Below, in pieces: positions 13,422-37,086 of a stretch of DNA of 37,086 nt (its first letter is position 1; each line of letters begins with the position of its first letter). Source of the stretch: a virus; the IMG/VR virus record IMGVR_UViG_3300021517_000013, positions 1 through 37,086 of that record. One strand, given 5' to 3'. A program made the translations under genes and the position numbers. The notes under the pieces were generated by a model that had not been told where the DNA came from, searched no databases, and saw only the letters and a program-made list of their open reading frames with translations.

Positions 13422-15974
13422 CTAAATTACTTGATAAGTGAATTGATACGACCAGGTTTGTGACGTAACATCACCTGCTACCCATTGTACCTTAGCTGTG
13501 TCATTAGCTGCCACACCAAACACCATTGCCCCTTGCCCGGCAATAGAACCACAAAATGCTGTACCTGCCACATCATCGGCTGCACCAAGGTTTGATGACA
13601 CGGGTAGTGTAATCTCAAAACTAGTAGTGGTAGCAGTAAGTGTGGGATCAGCCGTAAACCTACCAGATACAGTGACCGTATTACCAACTCGCATGTATTG
13701 GGCCTCAGTCATGGTAACATTCGCATCTAGGTTAGTCTCTGCTGAACGTGTTGGGGTATAAGTACCTGCTGCAAGTTCGACAGCACCGTTGCCAGTATCA
13801 ATGTCGGCACAGACGAAGCTATCATCAGTTTTGAGGGTATTAGCCGCACTCCTATATAGGTTGGTGTCAATTGCTCCTGCACCGCCTGGCCCCCATTCAT
13901 GCAACCCTGCTGCATCAACACTAAATCGTCTGACACCATCTGTAGTAATGAGGGCACTAAACGCTAAATCAGTTGAAGCTGCCCTAGCTGACCGAAGTTG
14001 GTCATTGGTACCTAAAATGTTGGCACCCATTCGGAATAGATTAGTGTCGGCGCTTAAGCCAAAGTGAATACCCGCTGATTCGACAGTATTATCAGCATTG
14101 TATGACAGCCAAAGAGTTCGTACTGTGGTGGCTCCTGAAGTTGAAGGGGCTGCAAACTTGGCCGAATAGCGATTGGTACCAAGCGTGTAACTAGCCACTT
14201 GTACACCAATGGCGTTAGTCCAGGTGCCTGAATTAGTACCGGCTTGTTCTATCGCTACGCCATAATCATCAGTTAATGTGCTACCTGCTCCGACAGTAGT
14301 CCCTTGAGAATAAAAGCCAACATTGGTAGTTACGTTATTTGTTCCGGAGTTTATACGGTTGATTGTAGAATTACCAAGGAAACCTACAACGAGTGATGTT
14401 GTTAGGGTACCGCCGTTAGCCTGTATTATTGGTTGTGAGACAAATCCACCGACTGGCCCAACTGAACGGGTAGAACCACTATTATTTTGTATAGTTGGGT
14501 GATTGTAGAATAAGAACCCCGAGCCGAAACCAAAGCCATCTTGTTGGAAAATTATCGTAGAACCATAATCCCATGCCACTGGATAACTTGCATTGCTGAA
14601 ATTAGCTGTGTAGGTATTATCGTTTTTTATGAAAGCATGAGTGGCTGTATAGGTTCTGTCGGTTGGTGCTAGCTCCAGTAACGACCCCGCACTTAATGCA
14701 CCGTCAAAGATAGCCTGGGCTGTACCACCAGTCGCTAAACCAACTTGGTTGGTGGTTGGTCTATATAGTCCATTATCGGTATCGTCGTCAAAAGCTAGGC
14801 TGGGTGCCGCAGCGGTACCATCAGGTGCTCTAACTAAACCTACTGGGGTAATACTGGTTAGTATAGCACCAGTGTTATCTTGCACCTCAAAAGCGTTGGC
14901 GGTTTGGCTAGAACGCATCTGTAGAACCAAAGCTTTTCTAGCTGTTGAACTAGGAGTATTCATTTGCTCTACAGTTGCATCAGTTGTAAGTGGTGCATTC
15001 AATAAAAACCTATTATTTACTGATCCAACTGTACCTAGGTAGAATCCACCTGATGAGCTAGTCTCTACATAACCATCAAAGAAGTTACGGCTGGATAACC
15101 CCGCAGAATACAGGTTGTAGTCAGTCACGCCAGCCGTCTGATTCTCAAGGTATAGGCCATAATTGGTCGTAAATGTACCACCACCAGTATTTGTATTTGA
15201 AACGATGATACAACCATAACCGGTTGTAATCGTGCCGGAACCAGTATTTTGAACATTCCCATATAGGCCATAAGCACTGGTAATCGTGCCGGCCGATTGT
15301 AGGGCGGCAATGCCTGGTAACCCAAAAGCACTACCAACCGTACCAGTGCCTCTATGTGCCGAACCGCCAAAGAATCCCGCTAAAATAATGCTCCCTGCTG
15401 TATTCCCCGCTAATGTAGCAGCCAAAGCTTCAATAGCTATTACGGTTGTTGGAGACGATGAGTAATTTGAAGCTAACTTGACATTTAGCCCATTGGTATA
15501 AACATTTGGTGTACCCGTTCTTGTTTCCTGAATGTTACTAACACTTGAATAAGTGCCAGCACCAAATAAGTCTTGTAGTAATGAGTTAATTTGGCCATTA
15601 CCGTCTACATCGGCATTAGCACCAACCGCTATATGGCCTGTGTATATAATGCCTGGGCTATCGGCTTGCCATTGGCTGTATAAATTAGTTGATCCTTGGG
15701 GTAAGTTATTAGTAGTAGCGGTGCCTAATAATGTGGTAAAGGCCGTCCAAGTGGTATTAGTTGCACCTTTAGCAAGAACAGTATTAGCGGCTGCACTGGA
15801 AGCGGCACTCGATCCAATGCCGAGTTTGGTTTGGATAGCTGTAATTTCTTCTTCGACTTTACCGTGTACATCAGTATGTTTTGGATTGGTAGCACCAAGA
15901 AACTGATCGTCATTATTAGATGTATCAGTTTGAGAATGTATGCTTGTTGGGTAATCTGGGGATGGGTTAGCCAT
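13422..15974 (-). CDS. Large fiber protein with beta-helical repeats
   Basis: 850 aa, almost free of Cys, rich in Gly, Thr, Ser, Asn and Ala. The N-terminus carries PKHTDVHGKVEEEITAIQT, a short trimerising coiled coil common in phage fibers. Two arrays of Gly/Thr/Asn repeats with YGLY-type strands (about 209-290 and 515-620) look like beta-helix rungs. Each is followed by a similar block containing NLYSAG or SAKFAAP, suggesting an internal duplication. The C-terminal 120 residues form a widespread fiber-tip domain (AQYMRVGNTVTVSG, SFEITLPVSSN). Its location between capsid and adaptor genes is unusual for a tail fiber; it may be a head or neck fiber. Leaderless start is predicted. Confidence 0.78.
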   Translation of the reverse strand: MANPSPDYPTSIHSQTDTSNNDDQFLGATNPKHTDVHGKVEEEITAIQTKLGIGSSAASSAAANTVLAKGATNTTWTAFTTLLGTATTNNLPQGSTNLYSQWQADSPGIIYTGHIAVGANADVDGNGQINSLLQDLFGAGTYSSVSNIQETRTGTPNVYTNGLNVKLASNYSSSPTTVIAIEALAATLAGNTAGSIILAGFFGGSAHRGTGTVGSAFGLPGIAALQSAGTITSAYGLYGNVQNTGSGTITTGYGCIIVSNTNTGGGTFTTNYGLYLENQTAGVTDYNLYSAGLSSRNFFDGYVETSSSGGFYLGTVGSVNNRFLLNAPLTTDATVEQMNTPSSTARKALVLQMRSSQTANAFEVQDNTGAILTSITPVGLVRAPDGTAAAPSLAFDDDTDNGLYRPTTNQVGLATGGTAQAIFDGALSAGSLLELAPTDRTYTATHAFIKNDNTYTANFSNASYPVAWDYGSTIIFQQDGFGFGSGFLFYNHPTIQNNSGSTRSVGPVGGFVSQPIIQANGGTLTTSLVVGFLGNSTINRINSGTNNVTTNVGFYSQGTTVGAGSTLTDDYGVAIEQAGTNSGTWTNAIGVQVASYTLGTNRYSAKFAAPSTSGATTVRTLWLSYNADNTVESAGIHFGLSADTNLFRMGANILGTNDQLRSARAASTDLAFSALITTDGVRRFSVDAAGLHEWGPGGAGAIDTNLYRSAANTLKTDDSFVCADIDTGNGAVELAAGTYTPTRSAETNLDANVTMTEAQYMRVGNTVTVSGRFTADPTLTATTTSFEITLPVSSNLGAADDVAGTAFCGSIAGQGAMVFGVAANDTAKVQWVAGDVTSQTWSYQFTYQVI

Positions 15975-16585: not shown

Positions 16586-17644
16586 TCACCTTAGATTCAT
16601 TAAAAATTCTTTAATCCGATCGGCTTCATAATCGAAATCAACCACCTTACAAAACTGCTTATAAGCTCGGTAAGACAAGTCAAAATACTCGTCTGGCTGG
16701 GCGTAGTGTTTAACCTTTTCGGCTATTTCACTAGGAGACAGGTTATCAATTGCAATACATGTTCTGCCATCAAGCAGTAGGTCTTCACCGAGTTTACCAG
16801 CATAATCATTAATAGCGGTAATAACTGGTACACCACAAGCATAACTATTAAATAGAATGTGTCCATAACCATCACCACCTGGTTTCACCTGCCAAACAAA
16901 CTTGCTATCTTGGATTGCCTGGGCTACTTGAATGGTACCGTGTCTAGCACCATCTCGACTCTGCCCACCATAAATCTTAACTTGGCCATCAACTAGCTTT
17001 TCAACTTCTAATAATGTGTTATAGCTTGGATACTGTTCTGGTACATTTAACAATGATGTTATATAGGCTGGCTTTTCTTTCAAGATTGGCTTAAAGATGT
17101 TCAAATCAAACTCTTGGTGATACTCAATAAAATTAAGTTCAGTACCTTCACGGCGGGCAAACTCTGGGATCAAATCCCACTTCAGCCTTGCACTAGCCAT
17201 AATGTTTTCAGCATAAATACCATCCCATTGATTACCTACCTGATAGATTAGTTTGGCATTAGGCTTATGTTCAGCGATTAATCTTCGGAACGGTTCGATG
17301 TGTTGGGGCAAAGATGCAATTACAACATCAATGTCAAGCTTGCGAAAGTTGTCAAAATCAATAGCTTTATTGTAATAACCAGAATCAATGTCTTGACAGT
17401 AGTAAATACCATTCTCAACCTTCGTGATGTTATTAAGCGGTTGGCTACCGTCAACTGGCTTATAGCCTTGGGCTGTGGTCAAATACTGTTGAATAGTAGC
17501 GGGGTGATCGTAAACTTTCCAATAGCCTTCTTCGGCCCATTCAGTACCGATCGGTCTATAAACGTTTCCTCCTAGTCTATTCTCGAATAGCATAATAAAA
17601 CTATTTAAAAGCCCAGCGTGGTGGAAGTCACAAAAGACATTCAT
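16586..17644 (-). CDS. Glycosyltransferase, GT-B fold (GT4-like)
   Basis: 352 aa. The C-terminal half has the nucleotide-sugar site of GT-B enzymes: VWQVKPGGDGYGHILFNSYA followed by CGVPVITAINDYAG and a helical tail. The Glu-x7-Glu pair typical of GT4 is not conserved, so it is a divergent member or may have altered chemistry. N-terminal Rossmann-like strands include IDVVIASLPQHIEPF and AKLIYQVGNQWDGIYA. The gene is the last of the sugar island and overlaps the preceding GT gene by 4 bases. The donor sugar cannot be told from sequence. Confidence 0.72.
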   Translation of the reverse strand: MNVFCDFHHAGLLNSFIMLFENRLGGNVYRPIGTEWAEEGYWKVYDHPATIQQYLTTAQGYKPVDGSQPLNNITKVENGIYYCQDIDSGYYNKAIDFDNFRKLDIDVVIASLPQHIEPFRRLIAEHKPNAKLIYQVGNQWDGIYAENIMASARLKWDLIPEFARREGTELNFIEYHQEFDLNIFKPILKEKPAYITSLLNVPEQYPSYNTLLEVEKLVDGQVKIYGGQSRDGARHGTIQVAQAIQDSKFVWQVKPGGDGYGHILFNSYACGVPVITAINDYAGKLGEDLLLDGRTCIAIDNLSPSEIAEKVKHYAQPDEYFDLSYRAYKQFCKVVDFDYEADRIKEFLMNLR

Positions 17645-18363
17645 AATCCAGCCTCCAACAAAAGATCGACCCCTTTTTGAGCCAACTTCTTGAATCTTGG
17701 ATCAAGATTGGGTTGTTGCAAACAAGTAGCTAAGTAGCCCCTAAACTGCGTTGGGTGATAAGTTATAATCTCGCCTCGCTCTAACAAACTCATGTTATGG
17801 CTAAGACCATTCATGTGGTAAAACATTGGATTTGGATAAGGATACTGATAAGTCGGCACACAGAGATTGTCCAGCTCTTTACAGAATAGACCAAAGTGGT
17901 CGTATTTATTATCAACTACACCAAAATTACAATTGGTTCTCCTTAAGGTTTCAAGGTTTACCCAAAGGTTAGATGGGTGTAAACGGTTATCACCATCACC
18001 CTCTTTGTAGCCAATCACATCATAGGTTATAGACTTAAGGGCAACATCAGTAAAGAATGAGTCTTGAGTGATAAATAAATCTTGTTCAGTGAACCAAACA
18101 AACTCAGCCTCACATAGACTAAGTGCTAGGTTGACTGCCACATCCCGCCAATCTTGCCCATGGGTTATCTCACTGTTGTTGAAGCAGGTAACTCGGTATG
18201 GTGATAAGTCAGCCTGAACAAAAGCGGTATAATCTTCACCTTGATGTGTCTCGGTAAAGACTACAAAGACCTGTTTGAACCGGTCTCTATTTTCTTTAAT
18301 AAAAGCCCGCCACAATGGGTAGTCACAACTCCGTGGCCAGCAGACTATTACGTCATAGTCCAT
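17641..18363 (-). CDS. Putative glycosyltransferase, GT-A like
   Basis: 240 aa. A single domain with VIVCWPRSCDYPLWRAF at the N-terminus and FVWFTEQDLFIT (E93-Q94-D95), which sits where GT-A enzymes carry the metal-binding DxD. Trp- and Tyr-rich C-terminal part (YQYPYPNPMFYHMNGLSHNM). It overlaps both neighbours in the island. The fold call rests on this motif and on context, so an alternative such as a nucleotide-sugar-binding relative is possible. Confidence 0.6.
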   Translation of the reverse strand: MDYDVIVCWPRSCDYPLWRAFIKENRDRFKQVFVVFTETHQGEDYTAFVQADLSPYRVTCFNNSEITHGQDWRDVAVNLALSLCEAEFVWFTEQDLFITQDSFFTDVALKSITYDVIGYKEGDGDNRLHPSNLWVNLETLRRTNCNFGVVDNKYDHFGLFCKELDNLCVPTYQYPYPNPMFYHMNGLSHNMSLLERGEIITYHPTQFRGYLATCLQQPNLDPRFKKLAQKGVDLLLEAGL

Positions 18364-19361
18364 CTTGGTAGTACCTCATAATACATAAGCATTCGTTTGG
18401 CTATGGCTGATCGATTCAATTCGTAATGATTACATAGTCGATCAAGAGCTAGCTTATAGTCTGTTAATTGGTTTTTTAGGGCTGGTTCTTTGAAATTCTC
18501 AGCAAAGATCGACCAGAAGGTAACACGTCGCTCTAACTCTAACTTTTCCTGTTCAGTATTAAACCCAACCTGTGGTAAGGGTTTATTAAGATCAAGTAAA
18601 CCGAAGATGCCACTAGACAAGCTGCCTACATGCAACCAGGCTGTTTGTGGTGCCCAGATGTTGGTTCTGGCATCGTAGTCTGGTTGATCGTCTGTAGCAC
18701 CATGGTGCTGTGGCTCATACCAAATCTGGCTTTCAGGAACGATTGAGTGGATTTGTAAGCTAGTATTCACAAAAGTATCACCTGCACAATCGGCCTCGGC
18801 CGGTTCATTCAAACCATCAATTACTTGGCCTGGCTTCCATAGTTTGGCACAGAAATTACGATCGGTCTTAAGTAGTAGTGCTCTACTAGAGAAAAAGAAG
18901 TTAGGCCAGAAGTTACAGCCCTGGTCTCCTAATCCTTCATAACTTAAGCTCCACTTAATTGCTGCCTTATCGAGAATCTCTTGTGAACAACTACCACGTT
19001 TTGAACCGACAACTTGGTATTGGCCACTCTCTAGTAGTTCAAAGCACTGTTTAACCTTGCCTTTGCGGAAAACAAAAGCATCGTCTTCGATAAGCATAAT
19101 GTGCTTTTCCTTACAGATACCAAGTAGCTCATCGATGGCGTTACCATGGTCGATCATTCTTAGACTATCTATAAACTCGCAATTGGTTGTTGCAGTTAGT
19201 AGATCGTAGATAAAGTTTATTGACTCTTTATCAGTTTGCCCATTTATACAAACATAAAGTTTATCAACCTCATCACGCCAAACACTTTCATAGTGTTGCA
19301 TCCAGTAATAAAGTAAAAACGGATCACCAGGAGTGGGTAAGATTACAGCCCGACTAGACAT
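18348..19361 (-). CDS. Putative glycosyltransferase, GT-A like (GT2-type)
   Basis: 337 aa. The N-terminal domain reads AVILPTPGDPFLLYYWMQHY, DKLYVCINGQTDKES, then HGNAIDELLGICKEKHIML and IEDDAFVF (E92-D93-D94), a convincing DxD in GT-A context. A later HHGATDDQPDYD and WLHVGSLSSGIFG could shape the acceptor site. The gene overlaps its neighbours by 8 and 16 bases. The C-terminal 80 residues are helical. Sugar and acceptor are unknown. Confidence 0.68.
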   Translation of the reverse strand: MSSRAVILPTPGDPFLLYYWMQHYESVWRDEVDKLYVCINGQTDKESINFIYDLLTATTNCEFIDSLRMIDHGNAIDELLGICKEKHIMLIEDDAFVFRKGKVKQCFELLESGQYQVVGSKRGSCSQEILDKAAIKWSLSYEGLGDQGCNFWPNFFFSSRALLLKTDRNFCAKLWKPGQVIDGLNEPAEADCAGDTFVNTSLQIHSIVPESQIWYEPQHHGATDDQPDYDARTNIWAPQTAWLHVGSLSSGIFGLLDLNKPLPQVGFNTEQEKLELERRVTFWSIFAENFKEPALKNQLTDYKLALDRLCNHYELNRSAIAKRMLMYYEVLPRWTMT

Positions 19362-19875
19362 AAATTAATGCCACCCCCGTACTACTTTTATTGTAGATTA
19401 ATTCGCCATTAACCCCTTGATCGGCTAGCTCATCCCACAACTTATAAACTTCAACCCCTGGATTATCAGCTATACCAGCATCATGCAAAGCGATAACACC
19501 ACCCTTTTTGACTAACGGGCCATACATCTCATAGTCTTGCTTTACACCTTCATAAGTATGGTCTCCGTCTATGAACAGAAAGTCAACCTTACTACCGGCT
19601 AAGGCTAGCTTAACCTCATCCCAAGTATCAACGCTATGTGAATCACCTTCGATTATGTCGGCATCATCAAACCTTAGCTTACTAGTATCGTTATCCACAC
19701 CAATCAAGATGTCTGGTTCAAAGGCTCGCCTCCAATCCTGGAGTGAATAACCAAGATGTACACCGATCTCCAGAATAACCTTTGGCTCTGACTTCTTAAC
19801 TTTTACAAGTAGTTCGAAAAGCTCATCGTGATTTTGTGAAGCTGTGGAGTATTCAACTACTTGTCTTATGTCCAT
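19354..19875 (-). CDS. SAM-dependent methyltransferase (Methyltransf_24-like)
   Basis: 173 aa. Class I Rossmann methyltransferase features are ILEIGVHLGYSL (motif I, E36/G38), IGVDNDTSKLRF (acidic loop for SAM ribose), then DFLFIDGDHTYEGVKQDYEM (D103-x-D105-H106) and KKGGVIALHD. The DGDHTYE signature is shared with sugar O-methyltransferases and CmcI-like enzymes in carbohydrate clusters. It overlaps the next methyltransferase gene by 10 bases. In this island it most likely methylates a glycan or its precursor. Confidence 0.82.
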   Translation of the reverse strand: MDIRQVVEYSTASQNHDELFELLVKVKKSEPKVILEIGVHLGYSLQDWRRAFEPDILIGVDNDTSKLRFDDADIIEGDSHSVDTWDEVKLALAGSKVDFLFIDGDHTYEGVKQDYEMYGPLVKKGGVIALHDAGIADNPGVEVYKLWDELADQGVNGELIYNKSSTGVALIYV

Positions 19876-20525
19876 TGGTAATCCTGTTCGGTGGTTTTAT
19901 AGAAGCCGGTCATACCCCTTGGGGTGGGGAAGTGGAATGGTCGTAAACTGCCGTTTATTATTAGCGTATTCATGGCTTCTGGAATACGGCCATAAGGCCA
20001 GGCGAAGCCATGTTCTTGATTATCGATTTGGTGCATGTGACGGTGGAGATCGTGAATAAATAGGTAGCCGCCTGGTTTTAGACTCTTATAGAATTGTAGG
20101 AGTTCAGCAAAGCGGGTCTGCGGTTCTGTGTCAAGCAGGATCATACCATACTCAAACTCCGGTTCGTAATCGGCTACATCCATTAGGCTTGAAACAACAT
20201 ACTTATCAAGGGCCAGTTTTTTAAAGCGGTTCTTAGATTTCAGGTGGTTTTCAGGTAAGAACTCAATGGTGTGAACCTCACCAAAACCATTCTCTTTACA
20301 GCCCAAGGCCATGTAGCTTGCTCCAATGCCCTCATGTGTACCAGTCTCTAAAACATACTCTGGTTTTAACACTCGAACCATTGCAAACAAAAATTCGCCA
20401 ATCTCGCATTCAACCCCACCACTATTAAAAGAAAAGTAGTTATTACCATCAATACCACTGTATTCAGACTCATTATGAAGCTGTAAGCTTCTATCTTTTT
20501 GCTGCATGTATTTTGTGGGTGTCAT
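19866..20525 (-). CDS. SAM-dependent methyltransferase, CmcI-like
   Basis: 219 aa from ATG 20525, chosen because it makes the usual ATGA overlap with the upstream stop and has AAGGAG and GGAG before it; a start 7 codons earlier is possible. Motif I is YVLETGTHEGIGASYMALG, the acidic strand VHTIEFLPENH, and MILLDTEPQTRFAELLQFYK plus LKPGGYLFIHDLHRH corresponds to the catalytic region of CmcI/Methyltransf_24 enzymes. His-rich HDLHRHMHQ could bind metal. Likely modifies a sugar along with the adjacent methyltransferase. Confidence 0.78.
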   Translation of the reverse strand: MTPTKYMQQKDRSLQLHNESEYSGIDGNNYFSFNSGGVECEIGEFLFAMVRVLKPEYVLETGTHEGIGASYMALGCKENGFGEVHTIEFLPENHLKSKNRFKKLALDKYVVSSLMDVADYEPEFEYGMILLDTEPQTRFAELLQFYKSLKPGGYLFIHDLHRHMHQIDNQEHGFAWPYGRIPEAMNTLIINGSLRPFHFPTPRGMTGFYKTTEQDYQWT

Positions 20526-21517
20526 TTCTCCAAATACTCCTTCCATTGTTTTTTAACTATGTCTTTGCCGAATAACTCGATAGCTTTAGTGCGACCATTT
20601 TGACTTATCATTTGACGTAACTTATTATCCTTTAGTAGTTGTTCTAAGTAAGTTCGTAATTGATCCAGGTCATCACTCACAAAGCCGTACATACCATTCC
20701 GAAGAATGTCTGGTACTTCAAACGTATCTTGGTTAAAGTCGGTTGAGTTGCCGTATTGTGGGCCGATAGAGACTATTGGAATACCGGTCATAAATGCTTC
20801 AATAAAGTTTAAGGTATAACAGGCTGGGTGAGTACCAGTATAAAAGTATACTCTAGCATCTCGCATCTTAGCCTTCATTTTCTCATAGCTTAAGCACCCG
20901 CCGTTTAAGTGAGTATCATCATTATTGGGGCCATAGACATGAGCATCTAAGCCTTTGGTGGTAGTTTCGTATACATCATAGTTACAATAACTACCCCTTG
21001 ACCGCATAGATTGTGCAAAGGTAACTATCTCATTAGTTGCACCATTATAATTACCAAACTCGGCTGGATCTTTATAAAAGCGGATTGTGGCGTCTTGGCC
21101 AATGTTATTAGGTATTCTAGCCTCATAGGGGCTGTAGCGTAATACTTCCATGCCTTCATTCTTGAATTGTTTAAGCCGCTCTTCAGTTGCGAAGGTGGAT
21201 TGACCAATCGATCGCCAAATAACTCTTTTGTGTTTAATCCTTGGCCAGTTAAGTTCGATCCATTCTGGAACGTGCATTATTATGATTACATCGGCCCACT
21301 CGATTTGTTCTTCGTGTAGGTTGCTCTGGTTATGTATCATTGATACATCTGCCAGGTGTTGGTGGTATTTATGGCCTAACGCTGGCCGAATGTCAGCATG
21401 CGGTTTCTTGGGATTAATGTAAGCACCAATTGAAAAGTAATCATAGCCCAGCTCTTCAAAGAGCTTAAGTTCGTCGTATTCAAGTATTGCATGACAGCTC
21501 AAATAGAGTATTTTCAT
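20522..21517 (-). CDS. Glycosyltransferase, GT-B fold (GT4-like)
   Basis: 331 aa. The N-terminal Rossmann part is MKILYLSCHAILEYDELKLF, with ADVIIIMHVPEWIELNWP. The C-terminal donor site is GTHPACYTLNFIEAFMTGIP followed by IVSIGPQYGNSTDF, with one of the two glutamates of the GT4 Ex7E motif kept. The helical end matches GT4 proteins (GRTKAIELFGKDIVKKQW). Overlaps neighbours by 4 bases on both sides. Expected to act at the cytoplasmic side; no membrane segment is present. Confidence 0.78.
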   Translation of the reverse strand: MKILYLSCHAILEYDELKLFEELGYDYFSIGAYINPKKPHADIRPALGHKYHQHLADVSMIHNQSNLHEEQIEWADVIIIMHVPEWIELNWPRIKHKRVIWRSIGQSTFATEERLKQFKNEGMEVLRYSPYEARIPNNIGQDATIRFYKDPAEFGNYNGATNEIVTFAQSMRSRGSYCNYDVYETTTKGLDAHVYGPNNDDTHLNGGCLSYEKMKAKMRDARVYFYTGTHPACYTLNFIEAFMTGIPIVSIGPQYGNSTDFNQDTFEVPDILRNGMYGFVSDDLDQLRTYLEQLLKDNKLRQMISQNGRTKAIELFGKDIVKKQWKEYLEK

Positions 21518-22641
21518 GTTTGATCGCCTCCTGCCATAATTAAGTTTAGCCGATCAAACATAAGCTTTCCAACCGCATCAAAACTAAACTTATCAAGAAC
21601 AGTCTTACGAGCTGTTTGACCGATCTTTTCGGCCTTATCTTTATTGTCATAAGCCCACCGCATTGTTTTTCTAACGTCTTGAATTTCAACCTTACCCCAC
21701 TTCTGATCTGGTAAGTACCAATGGGTATTACGAGTATTAGTTACTGGTATCATCTCAACTGGTAGCAACAACGCATCCTTTTTATGAGTTAGGTATTCAT
21801 GGATTCCACCAACATTACTACTGATAATTGGCTTACCAAGTAACATGGCTTCCATCTGCGGCACCCCCCAACCTTCACCACGGTGAGTTGATACAAAGCA
21901 ATGAAAGCTCCTGTGAAAGCGATAGACTTGGGGTCGATCCATCAAATCACGGTACAAATAGACAGGGGGATAATACTTTTGGTTCAAAGCGGCTTTAATA
22001 GCCCCAATGGCTTGTGAGATCTCTTGACGCTTGGTAACACTGAAATCATCAACATAAGTCTTAATCACCAGACTTACATCATCTTTGTCAGTGAATTCAG
22101 ACCAATAGGCTCTAAGCAGTGCATCAGGATTCTTACGTTCCGTCCATTCAAAGATTGAATAAAAGGCGAATGTACGGTCAGCTTTGCAATGATAAGGTTT
22201 AATTGACTCCGGTTTTACAGTGGTGCTAATGGCCTCTGGTATTACAAAAATTGGCTTGGTTACTCCTGAATCAAGGATGGCCTGTTTGTTAAATTCTGAA
22301 GCCGTCCAAACCTCATCCATTAAATGGCAGTTTTCCGCAAACTCTGGTGGTAGTTTAGTAGTTTCCCAGATTACCCGCCCAATGTTGTACTTACCTGGTT
22401 CGTGAAATTTCTTAAACTGGTCTGGCGTAGTGTGGATTATCTTAAAAAAGTAGTCGAGTGGGCGATCTTCAAGTTGACTAACAATCTTACCCATCTCTTG
22501 GTAATCGGCTTGTTCTCTAGTATAACGTGGTATTCGACAACTAACTTCAATGCCTTGTGAAACTAGGGCACCGATGTCGTTACGGCAAGCTTCACCATAA
22601 CCAGAATAATCTAAACTAGGGCCGATGTATTGAACATTCAT
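21514..22641 (-). CDS. Glycosyltransferase family 4-like
   Basis: 375 aa. Complete GT4 layout: N-terminal IGPSLDYSGYGEACRNDIGA, a central DEVWTASEFNKQAILDSG, a donor-domain opening FAFYSIFEWTERKNPDALLR, and the Ex7E motif HRGEGWGVPQMEAMLLGKP (E256 and E264). It is a retaining GT-B enzyme by family. It overlaps the tiny membrane protein gene upstream by 4 bases and the next GT downstream by 4 bases, showing that the island is one operon. Confidence 0.88.
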   Translation of the reverse strand: MNVQYIGPSLDYSGYGEACRNDIGALVSQGIEVSCRIPRYTREQADYQEMGKIVSQLEDRPLDYFFKIIHTTPDQFKKFHEPGKYNIGRVIWETTKLPPEFAENCHLMDEVWTASEFNKQAILDSGVTKPIFVIPEAISTTVKPESIKPYHCKADRTFAFYSIFEWTERKNPDALLRAYWSEFTDKDDVSLVIKTYVDDFSVTKRQEISQAIGAIKAALNQKYYPPVYLYRDLMDRPQVYRFHRSFHCFVSTHRGEGWGVPQMEAMLLGKPIISSNVGGIHEYLTHKKDALLLPVEMIPVTNTRNTHWYLPDQKWGKVEIQDVRKTMRWAYDNKDKAEKIGQTARKTVLDKFSFDAVGKLMFDRLNLIMAGGDQT

Positions 22642-22748
22642 TTCAACCGCCTTGACATAATAATCACTATGATAAGTAAAGCCGCTGCCGAACCTAATAA
22701 GAATAAATCCCAGTAGAGTAAGGATAGCCAGCTAGTAGTATCAAACAT
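22638..22748 (-). CDS. 36-aa single-span membrane protein
   Basis: Reads MFDTTSWLSLLYWDLF, then LLGSAAALLIIVIIM and a positive end (SRRLK), giving one transmembrane helix with the C-terminus predicted inside. ATG at 22748 follows AGGAGGT by 6 bases, one of the best ribosome sites in the window, located inside the end of the preceding GT gene. Its stop overlaps the next GT by ATGA. It may anchor the sugar enzymes at the membrane or act on its own. A longer frame upstream is not supported. Confidence 0.65.
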   Translation of the reverse strand: MFDTTSWLSLLYWDLFLLGSAAALLIIVIIMSRRLK

Positions 22749-22749
22749 C

Positions 22750-23934
22750 TCAGACCTCCTGTAACGGCAGTATGTCGCCGACCTTTCGCTCTGGTAAGGG
22801 TTTTTTCTTAATGTCATCAAAAATCTTTTTAAGTTGTTCGGCAGTCTTAGAATAAGTCCACTTCTGAACATACTTACTAGCTTTAGTACCTAATGCTCTG
22901 GCTTCGTCTGGATGCTCAATGCACCACCTCATTTGCTTACGGATGTCATCGACATTACATTTCCGCATATAACCAACATTAGTGAGCCGACGATAAATAG
23001 CGGTACACTTTTCAGTCGCTCGGACTCCTAGCATGTAGTTTTTATTAAAATACTCACTTATGCCATGAGCGTTTGGCACAATAGCTGGTAACCCAGTCGC
23101 CATAGCCTCTAATGGTGTAATACCAAAGCCTTCACCACGGCTTGGGAATAGAAAGGCATCAGCCTGTTCACACAACTTAAATAACTCTTGTTCTGGTACC
23201 TTGTCGTAAACAACCTTAATGTTGGGGTATTCGCTCGGTACAATTGGGATTGGTGCGATCTCGCGACTGGTTTTAAGAATCAACTTAATGTGCTTTTCTT
23301 TGACTTTATCAAACTCTTGGTCGAAGGCTTCTAGCACTTCAAAGTGGCCTTTACGAGCATTGAAAGCATCATAGTGTAAAAAGGTAAAGGTATCCCGCTT
23401 TGGTCGCTTAACATACTTAAATACTTTGTCGTTATAGCCTAGTGGTACAACGATTGAATCAACACCAGACTTTTTGAAAGTCTTTTGACACCATTTAGAA
23501 GGCACAATCACTAGATCAGCAGCATGTAAATAATCATACCAATCCTCGGGTATTTTATCGCTTTCAAACATAGTGTAGATGATCTTGTACTTGGTATCGA
23601 GTCGAGTAATACTATGTGGACTATGATAGAGCAACCCAATGTCTTGTTCGGTGTAGTATTCGCTAACTGGTACACCGGCCCATTCTAAAGCTTCAATTAA
23701 ATGTTTACTACTCATACCATAGCCGTCAGCACCACCACGCTCACTAACTGAAACTAAATAAAGCGACTCTTTGTAGCTTAGATCACCACTCATTTTAGCG
23801 TGTTCTAAGATTCGTCGCTCTCGGTACTCTCGTTCTTCTTGTTCAGTTGCTTTTCTGAAACCAGGCTGTTGTAGCCAATGTTCCCAATTTTCGTCTAGTT
23901 CAACGTATCTGCCAGTGGGGTTTACAAGTAGCAT
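22750..23934 (-). CDS. Glycosyltransferase family 4-like, first gene of the sugar island
   Basis: 394 aa. Residues 1-50 form an extra N-terminal segment (MLLVNPTGRYVELDENWEHW) not part of the usual GT4 fold. GT4 features follow: SERGGADGYGMSSKHLIEAL, AADLVIVPSKWCQKTF, FLHYDAFNARKGHFEVLEAF and the Ex7E motif RGEGFGITPLEAMATGLPA (E268, E276). Start ATG 23934 behind AAAAGGAAACAG. A promoter with an 8-bp palindrome lies just upstream (23952-23982). The enzyme is cytosolic by sequence; the substrate is unknown. Confidence 0.88.
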   Translation of the reverse strand: MLLVNPTGRYVELDENWEHWLQQPGFRKATEQEEREYRERRILEHAKMSGDLSYKESLYLVSVSERGGADGYGMSSKHLIEALEWAGVPVSEYYTEQDIGLLYHSPHSITRLDTKYKIIYTMFESDKIPEDWYDYLHAADLVIVPSKWCQKTFKKSGVDSIVVPLGYNDKVFKYVKRPKRDTFTFLHYDAFNARKGHFEVLEAFDQEFDKVKEKHIKLILKTSREIAPIPIVPSEYPNIKVVYDKVPEQELFKLCEQADAFLFPSRGEGFGITPLEAMATGLPAIVPNAHGISEYFNKNYMLGVRATEKCTAIYRRLTNVGYMRKCNVDDIRKQMRWCIEHPDEARALGTKASKYVQKWTYSKTAEQLKKIFDDIKKKPLPERKVGDILPLQEV

Positions 23935-35058: not shown

Positions 35059-35422
35059 ATTTAACAACTTGATAGGCATGGTCTAGGTGCTCGGGTAGCC
35101 AGAATAGCTCGAGCATTTTTCTTCGCCACTTATAATCGCTAGTCTCAACGCCCTTGGCTTCAATTAGGGTATAGCTGCCATCGAGTTCATACACTCTAAA
35201 GTCAATCTTGTGGTCGCAAACATGAACTTTATCGCCTTGAAGGGTCTTAGCATAAATCTCTACCTTAAATTGCCGATCCCAGGCTTTTATACGTTTAGCT
35301 TTGAGTAATAAATCAAGTTCAGCGGCCTGACTGGCTTCGAGCTTGGATGGATAATTATAGCCGTTGTATGAAGTTCTAACGGCATTGTACTTATTACGCT
35401 TTAGATACGTTTGGCGATACAT
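35057..35422 (-). CDS. DUF1064 family nuclease (PD-(D/E)XK-like)
   Basis: 121 aa from ATG 35422 (two TTG codons precede it). Conserved features are KYNAVRTSYNGYNYPSKLEA, the helix AAELDLLLKAKRIKAWDRQF, then the strand pair DHKIDFRVYELDGSYTLIEA with E-A-K-G, then SDYKWRRKMLELFWLPEH. The acidic residue in DF and the E-x-K of EAKG form a PD-(D/E)XK active-site pattern; DUF1064 proteins are thought to act as phage Holliday-junction resolvase-like nucleases. It overlaps the preceding gene by 29 bases. Confidence 0.83.
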   Translation of the reverse strand: MYRQTYLKRNKYNAVRTSYNGYNYPSKLEASQAAELDLLLKAKRIKAWDRQFKVEIYAKTLQGDKVHVCDHKIDFRVYELDGSYTLIEAKGVETSDYKWRRKMLELFWLPEHLDHAYQVVK

Positions 35423-35648
35423 CAACAATCACATAACTAATGTGCGGGCCAGAATAATTGGCCTCAAAGAATGCTTTGGCTTGATTAACTGCATCTTGCT
35501 CGTTACAAGCCCTAACTGGAACTTCGATGCGATCTATAACTTCTGGAGATTCTCGATCAATTGTAACAACACAACTAACCGGTGTTGAAGTTGACCAGTT
35601 GTAGGTTTCTTTGACAGCTTCTAATTTAAGTTCTTTTTTCCTTGCCAC
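35394..35648 (-). CDS. Unknown protein, first gene of the early operon
   Basis: 84 aa. A beta-alpha-beta arrangement: TPVSCVVTIDRESPEVIDRI, then CNEQDAVNQAKAFFEANYSG and HISYVIVDVSPNVS. Start is GTG 35648 with AAGGAG 8 bases upstream. No motif or family is recognised. A weak minus-strand promoter (TTGTGA-N18-TATTAT) is possible just upstream at about 35675-35705. Confidence 0.65.
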   Translation of the reverse strand: MARKKELKLEAVKETYNWSTSTPVSCVVTIDRESPEVIDRIEVPVRACNEQDAVNQAKAFFEANYSGPHISYVIVDVSPNVSKA

Positions 35649-35690
35649 TTTATTACTCCTTCACATAACCACTATAACATAATAATTAAC

Positions 35691-35720
35691 TTGCCTTTTA
35701 ATTCACAAAGTGCCTATAAT
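35691..35720 (+). promoter_or_regulatory. Plus-strand promoter 1 of the control region
   Basis: TTGCCT (35691-35696), 18-base spacer, TATAAT (35715-35720). Start expected near 35727, so the RNA would begin with the hairpin AACTATC-GATTACTT-GATAGTT. Confidence 0.6.
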
Positions 35721-35732
35721 ACATTTAACTAT

Positions 35733-35745
35733 CGATTACTTGATA
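35733..35745 (+). repeat. 13-base inverted repeat, left arm
   Basis: CGATTACTTGATA here is the exact reverse complement of 36030-36042. It covers the loop and right arm of the leader hairpin. A 13-base match within 300 bases is very unlikely by chance. Confidence 0.85.
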
Positions 35746-35920
35746 GTTCATGTAGGCAGCCTACCGTGAGGGCATTGGAGCATGTTAAAAGGTTCAATGA
35801 TAAGGTTCACGGCCTATACCTTAACCCATACCCATACAGAATGATACTAGCAGGATTGCCACCTTTTGGCAGGCTAGGGAGGTTGACTACCAATAGTAGC
35901 AAGAGCCATTACATTCTGGA

Positions 35921-35940
35921 GGGGCGGGGAAGGGCAGGGG
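35921..35940 (+). other. G-quadruplex motif
   Basis: Four G-runs, GGGG-C-GGGG-AA-GGG-CA-GGGG, with loops of 1-2 bases on the plus strand. Further G-runs follow at 35979-35990. It is strongly out of character for this AT-rich genome. Confidence 0.6.
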
Positions 35941-35995
35941 ATAGTTCAGGAGGATTCCTTGATCGCCGGAGGCGTAGGAAGGGGAAGGGGAACTA

Positions 35996-36024
35996 TTGAC
36001 AACTTTTCTATAGCTGTGTACTAT
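35996..36024 (+). promoter_or_regulatory. Strong plus-strand promoter 2 (small RNA 1)
   Basis: Consensus TTGACA (35996-36001), 17-base spacer, TACTAT (36019-36024). It is the best sigma70-type promoter in the window and faces a terminator only 25 bases beyond its -10, so its product must be about 50 nt unless terminated inefficiently. Confidence 0.75.
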
Positions 36025-36029
36025 TAGAG

Positions 36030-36042
36030 TATCAAGTAATCG
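36030..36042 (+). repeat. 13-base inverted repeat, right arm
   Basis: TATCAAGTAATCG, the exact reverse complement of 35733-35745. It forms the single-stranded 5' part of candidate small RNA 1. Confidence 0.85.
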
Positions 36043-36081
36043 CAAGAGACCGCCGCTAACCCTCACGTTTGGCGGTTTTTT
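36031..36081 (+). ncRNA. Candidate small RNA 1 (about 50 nt)
   Basis: It has a 12-base single-stranded 5' tail (the 13-base repeat starts one base earlier) and a terminator hairpin with a C-rich loop (CCTCAC). The tail can pair with the leader hairpin loop of the long transcript at 35733-35745, and the loop (CCCTCACG, 36060-36067) can pair with CGTGAGGG at 35765-35772. The second match is only 8 bases and could be chance. C-rich loops that bind G-rich ribosome sites are known in small RNAs of Gram-positive bacteria. Promoter and terminator are seen; regulation is inferred. Confidence 0.6.
36049..36081 (+). terminator. Plus-strand intrinsic terminator
   Basis: ACCGCC (36049-36054) pairs with GGCGGT (36071-36076) around a 16-base loop with an inner AAC/GTT stem, followed by TTTTTT. 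It has no function on the minus strand, where no T-run follows. Confidence 0.8.
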
Positions 36082-36122
36082 GTTTACGCAAAAAGACTTC
36101 CCAAGATTGCTCCTGAAAAGCC

Positions 36123-36662
36123 TTATTGCTCTACCAATACTTTGAGCGTGCCATAGTCTTCGAAGTAGCCACTATCCGCCTCTATAGCGTCTGGCATGAG
36201 TTGTTTTAGCTCCGACCATGGAATTGAAATGTCTTTTAAATGTGGGCTGTACTTGGTCAAATAGCGAAGCAACAGAACCGGTGAGATGACTACTAGCTTG
36301 CCGTCTGACTTAAGCATAGAGCGAGCCTTGTCCAGAAAAGCCTTGCGATCTTCAGCGAACGCTAGAACCAAGTTCACGAAGATGTAATCGTATTTGGCGT
36401 CAAGCTCCAAGTCCATGAAATCTCCGATGACATATAGACCATCAGGGTTATTCTCCACAGCCTCCCTAATAGCTACATCGCTTAGATCGATTCCAGCTAC
36501 CTCAAAGCCACGGGATTGCATTTGACGTGTCAGCTCACCCTTCCCGCATCCAATGTCCAAAACACTACCCGATGTCTTGTCTATGATCTTATCGAGCACT
36601 ATTTCACTCACTGGTGCAAACTTTCGCCCGTTGCGGTAGGCTTCATTCCAATTAGGAATCAT
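36123..36662 (-). CDS. Class I SAM-dependent methyltransferase
   Basis: 179 aa. Motif I SVLDIGCGKGELTRQMQ (about 33-49), acidic SAM-ribose loop FEVAGIDLSDVAIREAV, then the strand YDYIFVNLVLAFAEDRKAFL and the later SMLKSDGKLVVISPVLLLR. Size and layout match small Methyltransf_11/25-type enzymes. The substrate could be a small molecule, protein or lipid. AAAGGAG precedes the ATG. Composition is intermediate: 28 G/C in 60 sampled bases. It follows the GC-rich moron gene and may be part of the same acquired block. Confidence 0.85.
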   Translation of the reverse strand: MIPNWNEAYRNGRKFAPVSEIVLDKIIDKTSGSVLDIGCGKGELTRQMQSRGFEVAGIDLSDVAIREAVENNPDGLYVIGDFMDLELDAKYDYIFVNLVLAFAEDRKAFLDKARSMLKSDGKLVVISPVLLLRYLTKYSPHLKDISIPWSELKQLMPDAIEADSGYFEDYGTLKVLVEQ

Positions 36663-36732: not shown

Positions 36733-37086
36733 CTAACGGAGCTGGGTGCCGCAGCCAGGGCCTCCCTGGCATCCCCACCCACCGCTGCCGTTGCAGTCCG
36801 CCATGTTGGTGGCGTTTGCGAAGGCAAGGATGGGGTCGCACGGCGTCCTGGGATCGACCTGGGTACCGCAGTTGGGGCCGCCCTGACCGACGCACTGGCT
36901 GACAGCTTCGGCCTTGCGGCGTCCGCACTGAGCACAGGTGTTCTTGCAGCCAGGGCCAGGGTTGCTGCACTTGCCGTTGCCCATGACCGGCCCCCAGAGA
37001 TCGGGGTCGTAGGTGATCCCGTTGGCCTCCATGAAGGCGAGCGTGGCCGACAGCGGCATGTCGGAGGCACCCTCGTAGTCGGTCGG
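36733..37086 (-). CDS. GC-rich moron gene, C-terminal part (begins at left end)
   Basis: The rest of the 204-aa protein that starts at 291. After the His/Trp domain it runs LSATLAFMEANGITYDPDLW, then a Cys- and Gly-rich tail: CSNPGPGCKNTC, AQCGRR, QCVGQGGPNCGTQ, TPCDP, ADCNGSGGWGCQGGPGCGTQL. Ten or more cysteines in Gly/Pro loops suggest a metal-binding or disulfide-rich knot. Note that the last 30 bases repeat the first 30. The high GC continues through the tail. Function unknown. Confidence 0.78.
   Translation of the reverse strand, partial: PTDYEGASDMPLSATLAFMEANGITYDPDLWGPVMGNGKCSNPGPGCKNTCAQCGRRKAEAVSQCVGQGGPNCGTQVDPRTPCDPILAFANATNMADCNGSGGWGCQGGPGCGTQLR
37057..37086. repeat. Terminal direct repeat, right copy
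   Basis: Identical to bases 1-30. See the left copy for its interpretation as the closing overlap of a circular contig. Confidence 0.9.

Follow-up and report, generated by a model that had tools for sequence, protein, structure and literature searches.

Does a noncoding region of a phage genome encode two RNAs that pair with one another, or a single RNA whose two ends pair to close it? The question arises near one end of an IMG/VR virus record of 37,086 bases, which was analysed in full and is referred to here as the window. A preliminary description of the locus proposed two plus-strand promoters, the first starting a long RNA with a 5′ hairpin and the second starting an RNA of about 50 nt with a 5′ tail complementary to that hairpin. 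With moderate confidence we favor another reading, in which the region encodes a structured phage ncRNA, an orphan, whose two ends pair with each other (Table 1). Should this hold, phages with a relative in a Patescibacteria genome bin, from a group whose phages have been little studied, gain an orphan structured RNA. It would also mean that a same-strand complement can mimic a sense-antisense pair when it is actually the closing helix of one RNA.

Table 1. Predicted features of the locus, in window coordinates
Feature	Positions	Strand	Basis or remark
Promoter 1, TTGCCT-18-TATAAT	35691..35720	+	10/12 consensus match; start predicted at ~35727
Proposed single structured ncRNA, ~355 nt	35727..36082	+	MFE, z-score, non-coding codon usage, Rfam negative
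Transient 5′ hairpin with 5′ strand of P1	35727..35748	+	predicted in partial transcripts
Closing helix P1, 5′ strand	35733..35745	+	complement of 36030-36042; mean pairing probability 0.99
Helix P2, 5′ strand	35752..35760	+	pairs with 36013-36021, probability 0.98-0.99
Hairpin P3	35764..35812	+	z -3.8, 0/200 shuffles; probability 0.98
Branched domain P4-P7	35815..35936	+	z -3.45, 0/200 shuffles
G-quadruplex motif GGGGCGGGGAAGGGCAGGGG	35921..35940	+	overlaps 3′ strand of P4
Possible hairpin P8 (ATAGTTC/GAACTAT, inner CGCC/GGCG)	35937..35999	+	z -2.0, 10/200 shuffles as good; weak
Promoter-2-like site, TTGACA-17-TACTAT	35996..36024	+	10/12 match; start predicted at ~36031
Closing helix P1, 3′ strand (or 5′ tail of possible ~50-nt RNA)	36030..36042	+	
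Intrinsic terminator, hairpin and U-run	36043..36082	+	13-bp helix 36043-36055/36070-36082, probability 0.97

Setting of the locus

To judge from its genes, the window is a tailed phage: it carries a large terminase, an SPP1-type portal, a tape measure, a Dit protein, head proteins and an endolysin. Relatives of its terminase reach no more than 53 % identity, and those of its portal no more than 62 %. Because the first 30 bases recur as the last 30 (a direct terminal repeat, 1-30 = 37057-37086), the phage genome is probably circular and complete. A GC-rich (about 65-70 %), cysteine-rich minus-strand frame of ~200 aa spans the circular junction (36733-37056 joined to ~1-300). Part of this frame resembles gp33 of Streptomyces phage Kromp (45 %), no Pfam match was found for it, and it looks recently acquired.

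A relative with a common gene order, including the glycosyltransferase cluster, was met on a contig of 34 kb that belongs to a genome of the Patescibacteria sample. This relationship suggests a Patescibacteria host, with the proviso that the contig may be mis-binned. In the window, a cluster of glycosyltransferase and methyltransferase genes occupies 16586-23934, in an order common to contig G109:C15 of a Patescibacteria genome. In a relative phage (L005:6167-8040), a full-length frame judged GroEL-like from its translation adjoins a short GroES-like frame.

The minus strand holds nearly all genes of the window, among them the two that flank the locus, at 35394-35648 and, encoding a methyltransferase, at 36123-36662. 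On the plus strand, the frame 35691-35999 is open, and longer than in 99.25 % of shuffles. Despite this length, the codon usage of the frame is non-coding: read from the GTG at 35766, it has a score of -0.28 bits per codon, and each of the 118 in-frame pieces taken from the phage's genes scores higher. It has no Pfam match either. A protein-coding plus frame was rejected on its codon usage. With both results, the coding target that an antisense small RNA would need is, as far as the frame can be read, missing.

Promoters, terminator and the 13-nt complement

The two plus-strand promoters of the preliminary description are both present as sigma-70-like sites, each with ten of the 12 consensus positions. 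Calling the second near-consensus was right for its perfect -35 but generous for its -10, where only four of six positions match; we treat it as a candidate promoter with predicted activity. Plus-strand matches of this quality number five in the whole 37-kb window, two of them at this locus, and 0.078 per 520 bp are expected in shuffled local sequence. The sequence elements predicted for a 3′ RNA of ~50 nt, including its intrinsic terminator stem, are likewise there. A simple terminator scan misses this stem because its loop is long, and a wider scan locates it at 36047-36078. Between promoter 1 and promoter 2 no terminator was found; an RNA from promoter 1 would therefore contain the sequence of the small RNA, that is, its own complement.

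The complement itself is a perfect 13-nt inverted repeat with both copies on the plus strand, in one transcription unit. It is beyond chance in this region: when 35727-36085 was dinucleotide-shuffled 300 times, none of the long-range complements exceeded 11 nt. The earlier estimate of 45,000 local pairs against 4^13 is fair locally, but ~0.3 perfect 13-nt inverted repeats within 600 nt are expected over the whole window (37,000 x 600 / 4^13), so the weight of the complement rests on its placement. Across 1.15 Mb (the window and related phage DNA), a long complement of 13 nt that ends at a terminator occurs only here; the scan gave one other match, with 10 nt, and an 11-nt match that is a script artefact at a contig start.

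That expectation for the whole window is what lends some credit to chance, or to an inverted repeat that acts as DNA, for instance as a binding site close to the two promoters, with no functional RNA involved; conservation of the locus in relatives, moreover, was not found. Against this stand the local shuffles, the lack of further close copies of the repeated sequence in the window, the fold excess of the internal domains described below, and the shape of the repeat, which comprises the loop and one stem side of the 5′ hairpin and not the dyad. On this last ground a DNA operator was rejected, and we hold the broader explanation to be improbable.

Pairing within one RNA or between two

Folded as a single transcript, the region is more stable than its shuffles. 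The minimum free energy of 35727-36082 is -126.1, against a shuffle mean of -101.0 (z -4.5; 0 of 200 shuffles as low), an excess to be read against the genome-wide scan given below, and for 35727-36085 it is -127.1 kcal/mol (z -4.2, 0 of 100). P1 is the outermost helix of a predicted branched fold, is kept from 20 to 50 C and has the terminator directly after it. Pairing probabilities are high for P2, P3, the terminator and the P4-P7 core, whose inner helices 35837-35843/35912-35918 and 35847-35851/35873-35877 reach 1.0, but not for P8 or the outer part of P4. P3 and P4-P7 each exceed their shuffles when folded alone; stripped of its ends, the interior of the RNA gives no more than z -2.1, and the complete element read in antisense gives z -3.7.

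A coarse genome-wide scan (421 windows, 16 shuffles each) gave a mean z of -0.6 with a standard deviation of 1.4. The window aligned with the element, a manual addition to the grid, came fifth among all windows and led the plus strand; the regular-grid window at 35701 (z -3.7) came slightly behind a plus-strand window at 14701 (z -3.9), and several coding minus-strand windows fold lower, at z -4 to -5.7. Fold excess is not unique to the element, and a functional RNA could not be claimed from folding alone.

The 5′ hairpin of the promoter-1 RNA, as first described, is present in the predicted folds. In a series of growing transcripts it appears at every tested end up to 36029, and from end 36045 P1 is formed instead; these are thermodynamic minimum-energy folds and not a kinetic simulation. 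The 13-nt match had been described as a complement to the hairpin loop; the match is perfect, but it takes in a portion of the stem as well as the loop. Replacement of the hairpin by P1 accounts for this extent without a second RNA. Pairing between the complementary segments thus remains the natural reading, but pairing in cis is a better explanation of them than a trans-acting small RNA, because P1 has a probability of 0.99, its 3′ strand adjoins the terminator, and there is no coding target.

We infer from these folds that the locus forms a gene of its own, which yields a single structured ncRNA of ~355 nt. Transcription would run from promoter 1 to the terminator, on the strand that carries hardly any other phage gene. 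During synthesis the first 22 nt would form a local hairpin that sequesters the 5′ strand of P1. The emerging 3′ strand would then displace this hairpin, and the 13 bp of P1 would zip both ends together beside the terminator stem. The outcome would be a branched RNA with protected ends, presumably stable and functional; its most likely partner would be a protein or complex from either the host or the phage.

One closed RNA leaves the position of promoter 2 unexplained, and this position speaks most strongly for a small RNA. The predicted start of promoter 2, 36031, lies one base into the complement; among interior shuffles, the fraction in which a 10/12 promoter would start no more than 3 nt away is 0.00075, a post hoc figure. 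In the switch first proposed, a ~50-nt RNA from promoter 2 would use its 5′ tail to pair in trans with the hairpin that begins the promoter-1 RNA, and alter the fate of the long RNA. The complement to both loop and stem suits such a switch, and perhaps a second contact is made through the terminator loop of the small RNA, where CCCTCACG (36060-36067) is an 8-nt complement of CGTGAGGG (35765-35772). This 8-nt match is present as described, but most of CGTGAGGG lies in the 5′ strand of P3, and the contact competes with the local helix 35764-35770/35806-35812 (probability 0.98). The 13-nt and 8-nt segments have the same order in both RNAs, so that the two contacts could form simultaneously only as a kissing-type complex. 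Folding the two RNAs together gave a divided answer. On a transcript ending at 36028 the trans helix is favored by ~10 kcal/mol (-125.1 against -115.2), but with the full-length RNA, which carries the same sequence in cis, the small RNA gains only ~1.8 kcal/mol. No terminator that would yield the shorter target was found and a coding target is lacking, and we consider a trans-acting switch unlikely.

Both RNAs might also exist as 3′-coterminal products, the ~50-nt copy from promoter 2 trapping the 5′ hairpin of the nascent long RNA, blocking its closing and so regulating the folding of its own parent. We give this arrangement little credence; if real, control by a 3′-coterminal small RNA would be of a less common type.

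The G-rich stretch at the 3′ strand of P4 raises a further alternative. GGGGCGGGGAAGGGCAGGGG is the genome's only G3+N1-7 motif on either strand. Given its overlap with P4 and a slightly lower energy in quadruplex-aware folding (-128.9 against -126.1), P4 and a G-quadruplex may alternate. Local GC skew reaches +0.40 at 35850-35999. An RNA from promoter 1 that invades this stretch could form an R-loop and prime replication, and such a transcription-primed origin would be in keeping with the single motif, the local skew and a protein set in which family scans, which were not exhaustive, recognized no replication initiator, helicase or polymerase. However, cumulative skew localizes no origin, because GC skew is weakly negative over most of the genome, and an origin requires neither the complement nor the terminator. 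The likeness is one of resemblance only, and we regard an origin here as very improbable.

Known RNAs and the search for relatives

The closed ncRNA that we favor is close in kind to GOLLD and ROOL, large structured RNAs of phages and prophages that are supported by covariation and often lie near tRNA islands (PMC12286853). Like them it would be an elaborately folded, phage-encoded RNA of unknown function (PMC12286853). However, many GOLLD RNAs exceed 800 nt (PMC12286853), whereas the RNA proposed here has ~355 nt, matches no Rfam family and lies in a window without tRNA.

The locus had also been said to resemble antisense-controlled switches, and the complement on which that likeness was built is present; neither of the two systems compared here fits. 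The c4 antisense RNA (RF01695) of phages P1 and P7 controls an antirepressor mRNA (PMC12197685, PMC2864571) and comes nearest to the earlier idea, as a phage small RNA that pairs by complementary sequences around a ribosome site. Here, however, no antirepressor gene was recognized, Rfam gave no match, and the plus frame 35766-35999 has non-coding codon usage and no Pfam match; a c4-type RNA was rejected. In the IstR-1/tisB type I toxin-antitoxin system, the genes are divergent, the complement has 21 nt and the toxin is a hydrophobic protein of 29 aa (PMC4147584). The likeness lies in the complementarity between a small RNA and the 5′ part of a transcript made nearby, but here the complement has 13 nt and lies on the same strand, and no hydrophobic small protein was seen: the long plus frame is basic and glycine-rich, and the shorter frames were read by eye. 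A type I system was rejected as well. A retron ncRNA, closed by inverted repeats, would lie beside a reverse transcriptase gene. Here the ends are predicted to be closed by inverted repeats, and no reverse transcriptase was found among the proteins scanned, a subset of the ORFs.

The SRP RNA of E. coli forms a transient local 5′ hairpin, which gives way to a long-range end-to-end helix once the 3′ end has been made. Replacement of the 5′ hairpin by a closing helix would be common to both, in an RNA here of different size and family. In PMC12212151, SRP RNA is mentioned by name as a cotranscriptional case that has been modelled.

Searches for relatives were negative throughout. Rfam 15, which includes GOLLD, ROOL, c4, RNase P, SRP, tmRNA, 6S and introns, gave no gathering-level match in the window and no match at E ≤ 5 in 35640-36120, and ARAGORN found no tmRNA or tRNA gene in the window. 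No homologue was found by blastn among phages and plasmids, among related viral records, or in 380 Patescibacteria genomes, where a 24-nt match (96 % identical) falls inside a protein-coding gene and loses significance once the 380 genomes are taken into account. A covariance model built from the single sequence 35764-35940, a weak method, found none in 60 sources and 11 records; an exact pattern search found no match, and a gapped pattern gave 19, all unrelated. The methyltransferase used as bait recovered no relative. Within the collections searched, from which near-identical records may be missing, the RNA is thus an apparent orphan, which is not to say unique.

In a related record, L088, the syntenic place, marked by a 58 % identical DUF1064 gene, is without the RNA. 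At 1728-2490 of L088 (minus strand), ~760 nt carry no convincing gene, lie on the strand opposite to its genes and fold at z -3.9 (20 shuffles). This stretch had no Rfam match at E ≤ 1 and only four short, weak blastn matches against phages; it is possibly another large structured RNA.
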